Source: a virus
Strand: one strand, 5' to 3'
IMG/VR virus record: IMGVR_UViG_3300020477_001468
Location: 1-64,000 of that record
Length of the DNA: 64,000 bases
In this document: positions 461 to 15,956 of the stretch, piece by piece
How the letters are laid out: the number at the start of each line of letters is the position of its first letter
Position numbering within the stretch: the first letter of the stretch is position 1
The notes under the pieces: model-generated
What the model was told of the DNA's origin: nothing
The model's input: the letters and a program-made list of their open reading frames with translations, nothing else
Databases searched by the model: none
Translations under genes and position numbers: made by a program

Positions 461-1228
461 CTACCTCATGCTCCCTGAATTACGAATTTGAGGATTACTT
501 AGTTCAACTGCTCCACTAGGTTCATAAGCAGGTTCATCTTCAATTTGATCACCCTCAAAAGGGTCAGGTGCTGAACTTATTGACCTGTTATACCGAGCTA
601 CAAACTTTTTTTGTAGATACTTAAAATCTCCAATTTGTTCTCCATCTGGTCCTATTGTAAATCTTACAAAAGTTTCTTCTTGTCCTCTATTAGTAAATGT
701 CTTTTCTCCTACCCACCAAATTTTATAAGGATTCACTCTATGTAATTCTATTTTTACCGTTAATGATTTTGGTTCAGATGAATTTGTTCCTGTGTTCAAT
801 CTTCCATCATTAGCCCAAGTTCGTTGTGAATAATAATGAGCATTAATTATATACTCACCAGGAATGATTCCTCTAATAGTAACTACTTCTCTATTAATAT
901 TTACTTTTGTAATTGTACCATCTACATTTTTTACAATATCATTTGCATAACCCAAATCATCTTTATCTAAGTACATAAAATTGACTATAGGTAATCTAAA
1001 ATGTACTTTGCTTTGTGTTGGATCTTGTACATATAGATCAATATCATCTGGTGCATCATGATCCCATTCCATGACAACAACGAATTCAGCTTTTCGTTCA
1101 AAATCTTCTTTTTTTGCTTCTGGCTTGATTAATAAAAAGGCAATAATGAAAAGGAAAGCAAACCCAACAAGAATGTTAAAAAGCAGATCAGTGAAACCAA
1201 TTGTAGATTTATATTTCTCATTGTTCAT
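461..1228 (-). CDS. MotB/ExbD/TolR-like single-helix membrane protein
   Basis: 255 aa. A short cytoplasmic N-terminus leads into one transmembrane helix (about residues 14-34) that starts with a Thr-Asp pair at 13-14. This matches the place of the proton-binding Asp in MotB, ExbD and TolR helices. The soluble remainder (35-255) is not an OmpA/peptidoglycan-binding domain. It has a beta-sandwich-like pattern with a DDIDLYVQDP motif and a later GEYIINAHYY motif, and a low-complexity acidic C-terminus. It overlaps the MotA/ExbB-like gene upstream by 11 bases, as expected for a co-translated channel pair. The likely role is the plug or stator half of an ion-driven inner-membrane complex. The channel assignment rests on the helix and the neighbour; the periplasmic partner is unknown. 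Confidence 0.65.
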   Translation of the reverse strand: MNNEKYKSTIGFTDLLFNILVGFAFLFIIAFLLIKPEAKKEDFERKAEFVVVMEWDHDAPDDIDLYVQDPTQSKVHFRLPIVNFMYLDKDDLGYANDIVKNVDGTITKVNINREVVTIRGIIPGEYIINAHYYSQRTWANDGRLNTGTNSSEPKSLTVKIELHRVNPYKIWWVGEKTFTNRGQEETFVRFTIGPDGEQIGDFKYLQKKFVARYNRSISSAPDPFEGDQIEDEPAYEPSGAVELSNPQIRNSGSMR

Positions 1229-1685
1229 TCAGCACCACTTCAAGATTCACCAATTGAACTTTGATGATAAGTGAACACACTAATCCAACTAGGGTTGTCC
1301 AAAGAGCTGTACTCATCCCTATTGCCATATCTGACAATGCTTGTTGTAAAGTTATTGCATTTGATACATCTACATTTTCAAATGCTGTTCCTAACATTAA
1401 TAAAAACCCCGTAACAGTTCCTACCATTCCAAGAGCAAGACATGCTTCTGCGATAAACCATCCTACATCACTTTTTTGATTGTAATCGTGATGTACTCCA
1501 ACTTGATAAGTTTTTCTACCTATCCAAACAGAAGTACCTAAAAAGATAGTTAGTATGAAAAAGCTTAAACGTGTTACATCAGCTTCATATAATTCTTGAT
1601 GGACATTAAAATATAGACATATAATTAATCCTAAAACCACAACACAAAATATGAGCCACCATTTTAATAATGAAACCATCTCCAT
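1218..1685 (-). CDS. MotA/TolQ/ExbB-like proton channel protein
   Basis: 155 aa with four hydrophobic segments (about 8-26, 38-56, 78-101, 119-142). Segments three and four carry the family hallmarks: an ALGMVGTVTGFLLMLGTAF stretch and, after a short loop, AIGMSTALWTTLVGL, with small and Thr residues lining the predicted channel. It is shorter than MotA and lacks a large cytoplasmic domain, so it is closer to a minimal ExbB/TolQ core. The ATG at 1685 follows AAGAAGGA, a plausible ribosome binding site. The next gene overlaps by 11 bases and supplies the MotB/ExbD-type partner. Family membership is well supported by pattern; what the channel powers is unknown. Confidence 0.75.
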   Translation of the reverse strand: MEMVSLLKWWLIFCVVVLGLIICLYFNVHQELYEADVTRLSFFILTIFLGTSVWIGRKTYQVGVHHDYNQKSDVGWFIAEACLALGMVGTVTGFLLMLGTAFENVDVSNAITLQQALSDMAIGMSTALWTTLVGLVCSLIIKVQLVNLEVVLNEQ

Positions 1686-1807: not shown

Positions 1808-2524
1808 TTAAGTTGGACATAATGCCCCACTACACTTAACCCATCCTGATGGTATATGCCAAAGCCATACCAATATATCCCATAAAAAAGTACCCATAGG
1901 CCCTTGTAATAAAAATACTAAAATTGCTCCCGACATGCCAAAAAGAAAACTATTGTAAGACCATTTAAGAAATTTATATTTACGAAGTGCAAGAACTTTT
2001 CCTTGACCGAAAATATCTCCAGCCATTGAATCATATATGCTGTCATCAGTCATCAAGATTTTTGCATAATCTTCTTTGTATTCGTGTATATCTAAATGAG
2101 CAAAATGTCCAAAAAAGAGAGGATTAAAAAGAGGAGATTTTCTATCAATTTCTTTTGATCCTTTTATTTTGGGATAAGCTGTGTTTGGTATGATTGCAAA
2201 GATAGCAAATAGTAATGTAAAAAAACAACCACATGCAAATGTTAATAGAGGCCACTTCATAACTTCATTACTAAGATTTGCAATTGTAACAGAAAATACA
2301 ATTGAAGAAACAGTGATCATTATATTGGCTTTCGCATCTGCCATCAAACCAAGTCGCATTTGATTACCGTGATTAACACGTAAGATGTTATCAACCGCAG
2401 TGCGATCTTCCGGAACCTTTTCAAATGGCCTTCGTTGCTTCAGGTCAGCCGGATCAACTGAAGCAGAGTGCCGGGTTACATGTCCCATTTTATTTGAGTG
2501 GAGGAGCATATAACAAGCCGCCAT
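1808..2524 (-). CDS. PycTM (DUF5706)-type membrane protein, Pycsar effector-like
   Basis: 238 aa from the first ATG. The start may be the ATG at 2488, 2 bases past the upstream stop, which would give 226 aa. The core matches the PycTM family: an N-terminal helix ending in RLGLMADAKANIMI (57-70), two adjacent membrane helices (about 66-84 and 93-113), then the family's NPLFFGHFAHL and EYKEDY motifs (134-153), a GQGKVLALRKYKFLKWSY helix (173-190) and a third membrane helix (190-207). In bacterial Pycsar defence such proteins damage the membrane when a cyclic pyrimidine nucleotide binds. No pyrimidine cyclase is encoded nearby. Here it is co-transcribed behind phage structural and holin-like genes. 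It could be a defence against rival phages, a decoy, or a lysis or energetics protein. Confidence 0.75.
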   Translation of the reverse strand: MAACYMLLHSNKMGHVTRHSASVDPADLKQRRPFEKVPEDRTAVDNILRVNHGNQMRLGLMADAKANIMITVSSIVFSVTIANLSNEVMKWPLLTFACGCFFTLLFAIFAIIPNTAYPKIKGSKEIDRKSPLFNPLFFGHFAHLDIHEYKEDYAKILMTDDSIYDSMAGDIFGQGKVLALRKYKFLKWSYNSFLFGMSGAILVFLLQGPMGTFLWDILVWLWHIPSGWVKCSGALCPT

Positions 2525-3599
2525 TTGAATATAGCTTATTATAACCTCTTTTTAACCCAAGTTCAGTGTTGAGCCCAAGATTTCTTTCATATATTTCTTC
2601 ATAATTACCAACTTGTTTAATAACTTCATATGCCCATCTAGCAGGTATTCCTAATTTAGCCCCAAGATGTGGAAAGTCTGCACCATTTACTTCACCCATA
2701 AATCTTTGTATCACAGGATCTATATTTTCTTCAAAAGTATCAATGTTAGATGAGGTAATACCATATTCTTCTGCGATGAATAAAACATAAATCGTCCATC
2801 TTACAATATCAGACCATTGTTGATCTCCATATTTAACTACTGGTCCAAGAGGTTCTTTGGAAATAATTTCTGGTAAAATAATATGCTGATCCGGATATTT
2901 AAATCCAATTCTATTAGAAGCTAACCCAGAACGATCTGTACCATACATATCACATTTACGATCTAAATAAAAATTTTTTGGACTTTGATCTACTGGAACT
3001 TCAACAGGAACATATGCTATATTATGCTTTATAAAAAAATCTTTAATATTTTTTGCTGCTGTACCTGTTGAACTATAACATATTCTTGCACCTATCATTT
3101 GTTTAGCAGAAGACACTCCAAGAGTTCTTCTTACCATGAATCCCTGGCCATCATAATAAGTTGTGGGCATGAATTCTAATTTTTTAATAACATTTCGAGT
3201 ATACGTATATGTTGTAGTAGCTGATAGTATATCAATTGTTCCATCTATCAAATAACTAAATCTTGTTTTACCATCTATGACTTCAAATTTAACTGCTTCT
3301 TTATCAAGAAACATTGCAGTTGCAACAGCACGACAAATGTCAACATCAAAGCCTCTAAAGCGTAGTGCACCTACTTCTTCATCCCAAAGTTCTTCACCAA
3401 AACCAGGCATAGTTTCTTTAGCACCACAAATTACATGCCCTCGTTTCATTACACGTTCGTATGTAGAACCATAGGTTGGTCGATATTCTTCTTTAGGTCC
3501 TGGGTCGGTTAAAGGAATACCTTCTGGTTCTGCTTTGGTTGAATTTGCTGTTATAAGTAAAAATATTAAAGTCGCAAACAGCTTACCAAATAAAATCAT
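2490..3599 (-). CDS. AapJ/BztA-like general L-amino-acid-binding periplasmic protein
   Basis: 369 aa. Residues 1-23 form a signal peptide with a TKA-E cleavage site. The mature part follows the AapJ family closely: VMKRGHVICGAKETMPGF near the start, FRGFDVDICRAVA, a YYDGQGFMVRRTLGV segment, a CDMYGTDRSGLA segment, ILPEIISKEPLGPVVKYGD, and a C-terminal GLNTELGLKRGYN / GGLLYAPPLK. In alphaproteobacteria this protein feeds amino acids to the AapQMP ABC transporter. No permease or ATPase gene is seen here, so it would have to use a host transporter or only bind ligand. It overlaps the cytochrome gene by 4 bases (ATGA). It is a clear host-derived gene inside a phage operon. Confidence 0.9.
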   Translation of the reverse strand: MILFGKLFATLIFLLITANSTKAEPEGIPLTDPGPKEEYRPTYGSTYERVMKRGHVICGAKETMPGFGEELWDEEVGALRFRGFDVDICRAVATAMFLDKEAVKFEVIDGKTRFSYLIDGTIDILSATTTYTYTRNVIKKLEFMPTTYYDGQGFMVRRTLGVSSAKQMIGARICYSSTGTAAKNIKDFFIKHNIAYVPVEVPVDQSPKNFYLDRKCDMYGTDRSGLASNRIGFKYPDQHIILPEIISKEPLGPVVKYGDQQWSDIVRWTIYVLFIAEEYGITSSNIDTFEENIDPVIQRFMGEVNGADFPHLGAKLGIPARWAYEVIKQVGNYEEIYERNLGLNTELGLKRGYNKLYSNGGLLYAPPLK

Positions 3600-4045
3600 T
3601 GCAATGTCCTGTAAATTGCTAGAAGTTCTTCATCCGGTATTTGAGTTGGCATAGTATAATATCTTTGATGCCCTACTTGCATAAATGCTTTAATATCAGA
3701 AAAACTAGGATACTTAGTAAGGAGATTATGCAATAAATGATCTGGACTTAAATGACATCCTGCACATTGATTGTCTCTCGCAAAAACTCTTGTTGCTTTT
3801 TTAAATCGTTCTGATTGTACCAATACATTATGTAAGTCTTTTTCCATCCATATAACTTTTTCATTAATGTCTGGGATAACATAAAAAATTAAGTATATTA
3901 ACAAACCGATTATGGTGTATATGAATACTCGACTTGAAGCAACCAGATTTTTAGTTTCTATTTCTATTGCTTTTACTGGTTCCAGTTCCATTACATCAAC
4001 TTTTTCATCTGCAATAGATTTTGGAGCCTTCTTTTGTTCTGCCAT
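3596..4045 (-). CDS. membrane-anchored monohaem c-type cytochrome
   Basis: 149 aa. A charged cytoplasmic N-terminus of about 37 residues is followed by one membrane helix (38-57) and a C-terminal domain. That domain contains a haem-binding CAGCH (Cys94, Cys97, His98) and a distal YYTMPTQIPDEEL segment whose Met132 is the likely sixth ligand. Its end (EELLAIYRTLQ) matches the last helix of class I cytochromes c. It would need the host cytochrome c maturation system. It sits between the holin-like and AapJ-like genes and overlaps the latter by 4 bases. It may donate or divert electrons at the host inner membrane; the partner is unknown. Confidence 0.8.
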   Translation of the reverse strand: MAEQKKAPKSIADEKVDVMELEPVKAIEIETKNLVASSRVFIYTIIGLLIYLIFYVIPDINEKVIWMEKDLHNVLVQSERFKKATRVFARDNQCAGCHLSPDHLLHNLLTKYPSFSDIKAFMQVGHQRYYTMPTQIPDEELLAIYRTLQ

Positions 4046-4053
4046 AATTTACC

Positions 4054-4401
4054 TCAACTTTTCCTTCCTGCTTCATGTAACTTTTTGGTAATTTGTTGTT
4101 GAAACCATTTGAGAACAATTGGTATGCTCACATTTGATGTCAACCCAAAAAGATAACCTATGGGATAACGATAACTCTCATATGCCGCAAGTTGTGGAAC
4201 ATTAGTGAATACTATAGAGATCAACAAATATCCAGTTGTTGACATTCCCATATTAATGAATAAATCTAAGACAATTAACCATTTATGGCCAGCATATTTT
4301 TCTTTGTGGTCCTGTCTATAATTGAATAAAAAAATCCAAAATGATGAAAAAAGAACTAATCCAATCATCATGAATTCTTTTACATTAAATATTTCTTCCA
4401 T
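4054..4401 (-). CDS. small three-helix membrane protein, holin-like
   Basis: 115 aa with three hydrophobic segments (about 10-27, 41-64, 78-98) and a short basic tail, the size and shape of a class I holin. It sits directly after the small terminase gene (adjacent, no gap) and before the cytochrome. I see no endolysin gene in the window to pair with it. The call rests on topology and context rather than a diagnostic motif; an unrelated inner-membrane protein is possible. Confidence 0.4.
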   Translation of the reverse strand: MEEIFNVKEFMMIGLVLFSSFWIFLFNYRQDHKEKYAGHKWLIVLDLFINMGMSTTGYLLISIVFTNVPQLAAYESYRYPIGYLFGLTSNVSIPIVLKWFQQQITKKLHEAGRKS

Positions 4402-14590: not shown

Positions 14591-15956
14591 ACTCTTTGCG
14601 TCTCCAAGGAAAATTTAAATTCTCAACAGGCTGTATTGAATAGTCATCTAAAAAAGAAAACTTAATATCAGATTTTATAGGAGCAAATTCGTGCTCAGGA
14701 CAATTGCCTATAAAAACTGAACACTTGTTAGCAGCTATTTTTATTTTCTTTAAAATTATATCTGTTTCTAAAACTGAATAATTATGAGCAGTAATTGAAT
14801 AATTGCTTACATTTGAAAAATATAAAATACACTTCTTATCTTCAACCAAAGCAATCATTGCTGATGGGTCTAACATATTAACTAATTTATAATTGCATTC
14901 TATTTTTTTATTATTAATTAATTCAATTACATCAAGCAATTCAGGATTTTGATCGATAATACGAATAAAATAGTTATTCAAATATTCATGCGTCATTCTT
15001 ACTAGAGGAATTTTTATATCACCAACAACAGAATATTTTTGAAAATTTGCATAGTGTTCTTGTTCATCACAAAATTCTCCATATGAGGTTTCTTGTGGTG
15101 ACCAATTAGAAATGAGTTCTTTTGTAAAGCGTAAGGAGTTTTCATTGATATCACAGAATGTAATACTTTTTAATTTGGTATGTGTATATAACAGTGCTTG
15201 TAAACCATTAGCACAACCTACAAAATGTTCATAAGGCTCAATCTTAATTTCATCACGATCATATTGTGTTTCAGTAGACCATGCAAATACCCGTTGATTC
15301 TTTTTTTGAAAAATGTCTAATTTCTGAGGATGTACTCTATAATATCCTTTATGTTTTTTCCAGTCTATATACAAAAATCTTTTATCATCACGTACCGTTC
15401 GATTAAATGGTTCAATTTTTTTACCTGCTCTAAGTAGGTTAGATATTAAGTATGCTCCAGATGGTAATTCTTCACCATGTAAATCACAACCATATATGTA
15501 AATTTCTTTGCCACCATCCTTTATCCAAATAGGAGTATAATCATCATGAAAATTTTCTTCAGATCGTTCAACAGATCTCAACGTCTTAGTTCTAGTAACA
15601 TCATAATCTGCAACCTTCACAATAAAACATTGATCATGAACAGCCCAATATCTTGAACCTTTATCTAAAATATGTCCTACTAATGAAACTGTCTCATAAT
15701 CAAAATTATCTAATAAAACTCTAAAATTAAATCTTGTACCTATTTTAACGACAAGTGCAAATTCTGTAGTACAAGATGTTATATCTTCATCTCTTAAATA
15801 TTCAACGTACTTATAACTGCCGCCAAATGTATTAATTACATGATCCATAACATTTATGGCTAAATTGTACTCTTTTGAATAATTTTGTAGATTATAATTT
15901 TCTACTACTATAATTGTAAAGCGTTCGGCAGGTTGCTTTTTATATGGTGTGATCAT
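14556..15956 (-). CDS. two-part protein with methyltransferase-like C-terminal half
   Basis: 466 aa, family not recognised. Residues 1-200 have an alpha/beta pattern with FALVVKIGTRFNF (66-78) and VGHILDKGSRYWAVHDQCFIV, reminiscent of the nucleotide-sugar domains in phage and capsule clusters. Residues 242-280 carry a glycine-containing FVGCANGLQALLY loop followed by SITFCDINENSL, which resembles motif I and II of class I SAM-dependent methyltransferases. It is followed by a strand-rich end. It is probably a fusion. Activity not established. Confidence 0.45.
   Translation of the reverse strand: MITPYKKQPAERFTIIVVENYNLQNYSKEYNLAINVMDHVINTFGGSYKYVEYLRDEDITSCTTEFALVVKIGTRFNFRVLLDNFDYETVSLVGHILDKGSRYWAVHDQCFIVKVADYDVTRTKTLRSVERSEENFHDDYTPIWIKDGGKEIYIYGCDLHGEELPSGAYLISNLLRAGKKIEPFNRTVRDDKRFLYIDWKKHKGYYRVHPQKLDIFQKKNQRVFAWSTETQYDRDEIKIEPYEHFVGCANGLQALLYTHTKLKSITFCDINENSLRFTKELISNWSPQETSYGEFCDEQEHYANFQKYSVVGDIKIPLVRMTHEYLNNYFIRIIDQNPELLDVIELINNKKIECNYKLVNMLDPSAMIALVEDKKCILYFSNVSNYSITAHNYSVLETDIILKKIKIAANKCSVFIGNCPEHEFAPIKSDIKFSFLDDYSIQPVENLNFPWRRKEYEDYKRRIRKI

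Follow-up and report, generated by a model that had tools for sequence, protein, structure and literature searches.

A putative phage-encoded proton motor with a TerD-like periplasmic domain and a third subunit

Proton-driven motors power flagella, outer-membrane transport, division and one phage-defense system. What would such a motor do in a virus? The question arises at one end of a 64,000-base stretch of viral DNA (the window, bases 1–64000 of a 75,021-base virus record), where a preliminary description made from the sequence had recognized a phage-encoded pair of genes resembling MotA/ExbB and MotB/ExbD. We found both ORFs where they had been placed, overlapping by 11 bp, and refer to their products as the A and B subunits. 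The identity of the pair was borne out, with PF01618 found (E ≤ 0.001) in 60/60 rows of our A-protein alignment (A6) and with the pore threonines and the helix aspartate conserved. The two-gene view proved right about these genes but incomplete, since a third ORF directly after the B gene belongs to the same unit (Table 1). The phage setting was also upheld: Pfam and PHROGs place T4-type gp16, gp15, gp14 and gp13 among the genes near the cassette, and relatives were found on viral contigs as long as 328 kb.

Table 1. Features of the cassette and its upstream region, in window positions.
Feature	Position	Strand	Description
Third subunit, truncated by the record end	3–458	minus	Two predicted TM helices and a small β domain
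B subunit, 255 aa	461–1228	minus	N-terminal TM helix with Asp14, linker of about 15 residues and predicted TerD-like domain
A subunit, 155 aa	1218–1685	minus	Minimal four-TM MotA/TolQ/ExbB-like protein; PF01618
Candidate T4-type late promoter	1757–1763	minus	ATAAATA, 77 bases upstream of the A start
Linked separate module	1808–4401	minus	115-aa membrane protein, CxxCH membrane protein, SBP_bac_3 protein and PycTM protein

The A protein matches PF01618 (MotA_ExbB) at 31.4 bits against a cut-off of 22.9, the single match to that family in the whole record, and the two channel patterns reported earlier, GMVGTVTGF and STALWTTLVGL, are both present in it. When TolQ structures were aligned to the A profile with HMMER, a marginal alignment (E 0.005; positions counted from the printed alignment) put T90 and T131 of A opposite T145 and T178 of TolQ. 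T131 is kept in 145/145 distinct A proteins and T90 in 140/145, and these two threonines are likely the pore residues. A trait of the MotA family, the cytoplasmic domain between TM2 and TM3, is missing in the window's A protein, which lacks a stretch of approximately 100 residues that the bacterial rows listed (every second row of A6) have. Since the phage A protein has no sizeable cytoplasmic domain, the output of the complex would be periplasmic.

The model of the B protein (m300ad6ecf372, 79 rows; pLDDT 81.8) comprises a helix at residues 6–33, a β-sandwich at about 46–211 and a C-terminal tail of low confidence. The single helix with an aspartate at its start was thus recovered, with Asp14 near the beginning of the predicted helix, and the linker that follows has no predicted plug helix. 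The preliminary description had let its reading depend on conservation of Asp14 among homologs. The residue is kept in all 74 distinct phage B proteins, of which 64 are viral, 3 come from MAG bins and 7 from rhizobiophages, but in only 23 of 77 distinct bacterial ones; the remaining 54 carry V or A there along with K18, a type found among bacterial loci such as L134, L162 and L167. With such residues in 54/77 bacterial B proteins, the channel chemistry there may differ or be lost. The A partners of these proteins retain both pore threonines.

The B protein of the window matched nothing in Pfam, PHROGs, PADLOC or NCBIfam. Its soluble part had been described as neither OmpA-like nor a typical ExbD domain, and our searches agree: no Pfam family matches at E ≤ 1, so neither domain is detected, and neither is among the 25 Pfam families listed, out of 28, for the 79 B members. 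The weak sequence matches among those members are to PPC (9/79, best E 0.0094) and DUF2135 (4/79, best E 0.0003). A PHROG family without assigned function, phrog_1735, is common to 31 of the 79 B proteins (best E 5e-7), and the window's protein is not one of them.

Structural comparison of the model gave a more specific result. The first three Foldseek ranks in the PDB were two chains of the TerD homolog 2qz7, and the uncharacterized protein 2qng, with E values from 5.5e-4 to 9.1e-4; the match at E 5.5e-4 had a probability of 1.00, and TM scores for the three were 0.34 by query and 0.47–0.48 by target. In the VIA comparison, three of the top six rows are TerD by title: 3ibz (Z 10.9, rmsd 5.4, 140 aligned), 2qz7 (Z 9.9, rmsd 3.7, 129 aligned) and the calcium-binding 2kxt (Z 9.3, rmsd 3.3, 127 aligned). 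The others are 9a6r (Z 10.0) and 7jtk (Z 9.4), not TerD by title, and 2qng (Z 9.9), and the seventh row drops to 6.7. A search of BFVD with the B model returned a single match below E 0.001, to a Cellulophaga phage protein of 713 aa. The periplasmic domain of B is therefore predicted to have a TerD-like β-sandwich fold, which is a statement about fold only. It resembles TerD (PF02342, a calcium-binding tellurite-resistance protein) in predicted fold, over the Z range of 9.3–10.9, and in having invariant acidic residues: D62, D64 and D90 never vary among the rows and D88, D91 and E114 hardly do, an arrangement that would suit a metal site. It differs from TerD in being membrane-anchored and predicted periplasmic, and in having no detectable TerD sequence homology. 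Membership in TerD by sequence was rejected, as hhalign of the B soluble domain (79 rows) against TerD, run in four modes, detected no relationship (probability 0.4% against 12 sequences); the TerD alignment held 11, then 12, of 30 fetched TerD loci, the rest having failed a motif filter, and its Neff was about 2.1–2.3. The TerD profile PF02342 matched in 0/9 genomes carrying a B gene.

The third subunit was modeled (m5acbcf664cea) at a pLDDT of 84.1 as two helices followed by a β domain, with a low-confidence stretch near the end; in this model its periplasmic part is only about 100 residues. The loop between TM1 and TM2 is net positive in 64/69 rows and negative in none, which by the positive-inside rule predicts that the β domain is periplasmic. 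No named fold emerged from the searches (Foldseek best E 0.17, VIA best Z 6.6), and the weak Pfam match was to DUF6057 in 8/69 rows (best E 0.00016).

We searched viral contigs with the A protein, which yielded 26 relatives (33 stretches matched), and with the B alignment, which yielded 330 relatives on viral contigs and 167 on genome contigs, the best 80 of each being analyzed. After reduction to non-redundant loci (B at least 180 aa, identity at most 85%), those two sets of 80 gave 49 viral and 40 bacterial loci; the viral set includes L107, a MAG contig of phage-like character, and gene calls in the locus scans were simple ORF picks. A, B and the third gene lie on one strand in 49/49 of these viral loci, and the commonest neighbor family outside the trio occurs in 11/49. 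The three genes mostly overlap or touch, with a gap of 139 bases between A and B in one locus and of 105 to 1342 bases between B and the third gene in four viral loci.

The trio is also present in isolated phages. All 27 phage records with a B match come from Rhizobium or Sinorhizobium, and the trio was found in 7/7 of the loci read from phages of these hosts: two Pootjesviridae (154 and 156 kb), a 68-kb phage, the 171-kb RHph_I1_18, and temperate phage 16-3 with two relatives. The trio of 16-3 is p038, p040 and p042, the match to p038 being weak (E 0.00018).

Bacterial contigs carry three-gene sets as well: clustering by blastp put A in 36, B in 34 and the third gene in 33 of the 40 non-redundant loci. 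The B profile matched 40/289 genomes sampled from the class of a Bradyrhizobium and 31/274 from that of a Gammaproteobacterium, counts that include the center genome, some weak or partial matches, and any prophages; the rate is approximately one in eight sampled genomes of these two proteobacterial classes. In all five searched genomes of one genus (G159 and G694–G697), two to four B-profile matches each were seen, some with stops or as fragments. In the B tree, a single branch (SH-aLRT 84; a quick method, with long branches flagged) separates the 40 bacterial rows from the others, which makes many recent captures from hosts unlikely, and we rejected that scenario. A short MotA tree required three changes and was poorly resolved.

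We then considered when the cassette is made. The motif ATAAATA, which we take to be the T4-type late motif, lies just upstream of the A gene. On both strands of the window it occurs 14 times, against a mean of 57 (44–75) in 40 simulated sequences, and 11 of the 14 sites are at most 138 bases upstream of a same-strand ORF. Depletion together with a position mostly upstream of genes is as expected for a T4-type late promoter. Eight other window genes have the motif, five of which match head, tail or connector families. Among relatives, it stands 20–160 bases upstream of 13/46 A genes versus 60/769 other gene starts taken from the same loci (p 3e-5), and it is upstream of 0/49 B genes and 1/49 third genes. 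It is missing in 33/46 relatives and precedes the cassette in 0/7 rhizobiophage loci. The cassette is probably made late in T4-like phages, as judged from this motif; because the rhizobiophage loci are without it, the late timing is proposed for T4-like phages only.

Outside the trio, no neighbor is general. The SbmA/BacA transporter is encoded in 11/41 viral loci that have at least 900 bases after the third gene (L003, L007, L034, L042, L058, L069, L083, L099, L100, L105 and L107; 3 of these 11 hold seeds of the neighbor profile), and in 10 of the 11 it starts within approximately 700 bases after the third gene. The loci with SbmA sit on well-separated branches of the B tree, and the copy in L007 matches PF05992 at 449 bits. 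The SbmA profile found nothing in the 40 bacterial loci or the seven rhizobiophage loci. Other profiles placed a lipase in 4/49 viral loci (2 of the 4 being seeds) and a trypsin-like (HtrA-like) protease in 4/49 viral and 4/7 rhizobiophage loci (6 of the 8 being seeds). Transport genes of other kinds were noted near single cassettes, namely a Na/Pi cotransporter (PF02690, L086) and a PnrA-type binding protein (PF02608, L085), and an ORF at 14822–15994 of L007 looks AmtB-like by eye.

In the seven isolate stretches, DNA-metabolism genes dominate the neighbors in three and the neighbors are mixed in four. No gene annotated as lysis was present in the stretches read, where many genes are hypothetical. 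In 16-3 and its two relatives, the protease gene comes directly before the cassette (4280–5179 in L187, 2111–2821 in L189 and 2598–3245 in L190), and the cassette of 16-3 is about 4 kb from the immX genes.

Bacterial neighborhoods showed no constant partner among the 40 non-redundant loci. Counted as blastp clusters named from Pfam-scanned members, the neighbors were a histidine kinase in 12, YkuD in 6, a PQQ dehydrogenase in 6 and VWA-FHA in 4. A divergent NarL-type two-component pair is nearby in approximately 12/40 loci, and a PQQ alcohol dehydrogenase cluster lies in the fetched stretch in 6/40 (L114, L119, L125, L138, L143 and L158). None of the 25 commonest Pfam families of 98 bacterial neighbor proteins is a defense family.

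Upstream of the cassette, the window holds a module that is outside the core cassette; it co-occurs in L003, L011 and L018 and stands apart from the cassette there. One of its genes (1808–2524, minus strand) encodes a PycTM protein, the Pycsar effector domain (PF18967 E 3.6e-21, PADLOC PycTM 2e-14), with relatives in those same three loci. No cyclase gene partner was identified among the scanned neighbors, and the phage protein is possibly a decoy or counter-defense protein. The remainder (2490–4401, minus strand) encodes an amino-acid binding protein (PF00497; TIGR01096 at 108 bits, under its cut-off of 256), a CxxCH membrane protein and the 115-aa membrane protein. At the right end of the record (L221 11260–12020, minus strand) are a lipoprotein and a fragment of a class-3 lipase, the latter recognized by eye. 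In L011, a lipase (PF01764) comes directly after the third gene, so the two ends of the record may adjoin.

How the cassette relates to known systems bears on what it might do. It shares with the 5:2 motors ExbBD, TolQR and MotAB the PF01618 family of A, the pore threonines, the N-terminal helix of B with its aspartate, and the A–B gene order. It differs from them in the absence of a sizeable cytoplasmic domain in the phage A protein, in a B protein that carries a predicted TerD-like β-sandwich, matches neither OmpA nor ExbD and has no plug in its model, and in its constant third gene. Within the literature searched, the nearest printed precedent is the TolQ plus TPH-vWA class of proposed motors, which have an aspartate-bearing B-type helix fused to a vWA periplasmic domain and are of unknown function (PMC12204202). 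Those motors have a non-OmpA periplasmic domain on the aspartate helix and a TolQ-like partner gene, like the cassette; their vWA genes are mostly paired, whereas the cassette has a TerD-like domain, a third subunit with two TM helices, and carriage by phages (PMC12204202). Varied terminal extensions and compact B-subunit domains are described for non-flagellar members (PMC12505986). Titles and the beginnings of abstracts in our search of openly available papers named no phage-encoded system like the cassette and no TerD-like B subunit.

A distant resemblance to ZorAB of the Zorya system had been suggested. The MotA/ExbB channel core is indeed common to the cassette and ZorA (PADLOC ZorA, best E 8e-5), and the resemblance ends there: the ZorA models have 420–683 positions against the 155 aa of A, the matches are partial, A has no tail of ZorA length, and with 0 PADLOC models matching the cassette's B protein there is no ZorB match. 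A reading as a defense system was rejected on similar grounds, PADLOC and NCBIfam yielding only partial matches to the ZorA/MotA/TolQ core, those of NCBIfam far below their cut-offs.

We consider it fairly probable that the cassette encodes a compact proton-driven motor of the ExbBD/TolQR/MotAB type, one that has a third subunit of its own and a periplasmic output domain of a new kind, and that this motor acts on the infected cell's envelope. The data directly show the order of the genes, their conservation, the folds predicted for the products and the promoter motif; we infer the 5:2 stoichiometry, the flow of protons, rotation, binding of calcium, a contact between the third subunit and the other two, the timing and the role. 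All three proteins would belong to one inner-membrane complex, with the helices of two B chains enclosed by five four-helix A proteins. Proton transfer between Asp14 of B and the threonines of the A pore, as in MotAB, ExbBD and TolQR, would turn or rock the two B chains. The TerD-like domains, possibly calcium-bound, would be the output and, with the third subunit, would act on an envelope target. In T4-like phages, the complex would probably be made late and would serve to remodel or maintain the infected cell's envelope; some of them would produce an SbmA/BacA transporter, lipoproteins or a periplasmic protease along with it. As to role, we favor envelope work together with transport over exclusion or the timing of lysis.

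Uptake of nutrients could be the purpose. The complex would then be an ExbBD-like booster that energizes the import of peptides or solutes alongside SbmA and other transport genes of the phage and so feeds virion production in poor waters, a reading that we regard as possible though doubtful. It draws on the SbmA genes placed close behind the third gene, on the Na/Pi cotransporter gene near the cassette of L086 and the gene for a PnrA-type binding protein near that of L085, and on the SBP_bac_3 protein in the window. However, no TonB- or TolA-like spanning protein was seen, and the periplasmic part of the third subunit is short; SbmA is itself proton-driven, and its profile is without a match in the bacterial and rhizobiophage loci. 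It also seems unlikely to us that the genes were acquired from hosts, where they would do housekeeping work in the envelope, and that phages merely duplicate this role. The three-gene sets on bacterial contigs and the B matches in sampled genomes of two classes would agree with such an origin, but the bacterial B proteins on one side of a single branch argue against many recent captures, and the phage A protein lacks the stretch between TM2 and TM3.

Two further readings concern other phages and the end of infection. A motor that senses or acts on the envelope might block entry or harm by other phages, with a function like that of ZorAB. The proximity of the cassette to immX in temperate 16-3, its place after the trypsin-like protease gene in 16-3 and two relatives, and the channel core shared with ZorA models all lend something to superinfection exclusion or an envelope guard. 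Against this stand the missing ZorA-length tail, a B protein that PADLOC does not match, the probable late expression in the window and the bacterial neighbors, whose commonest families include none for defense, and we judge it improbable. The preliminary description had also raised the possibility that proton-motive force is drained before lysis. An open proton path that lowers this force late in infection and triggers holins would fit the late motif that precedes the cassette both in the window and in more than a quarter of relatives, the short linker without a plug helix in the B model, and the lipase genes in a few viral loci. Yet bacterial genomes carry homologs, the isolate neighbors are mostly DNA-metabolism genes or mixed, with none annotated as lysis among many hypothetical genes, and a leak needs neither a conserved periplasmic domain nor a third subunit. 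We hold lysis timing to be very unlikely.

The reading of the cassette as an envelope-acting motor can be taken further, as a tentative proposal to which we give rather less than even weight. The cassette would represent an old, widespread and unnamed class of proton motor, found in several phage lineages and in proteobacteria, with a calcium-binding TerD-like output and a third subunit of its own, which phages use late for mechanical work on the envelope, for example for peptide import with their own SbmA.

If the motor reading is true, viruses bring their own machine for powering the cell envelope, a compact one with a previously unrecognized output domain and a third subunit. Phage 16-3 is temperate and its host is genetically tractable, so the question of what the cassette does is directly testable. 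An answer obtained for the phage cassette could account for the function of the related genes in bacteria too.
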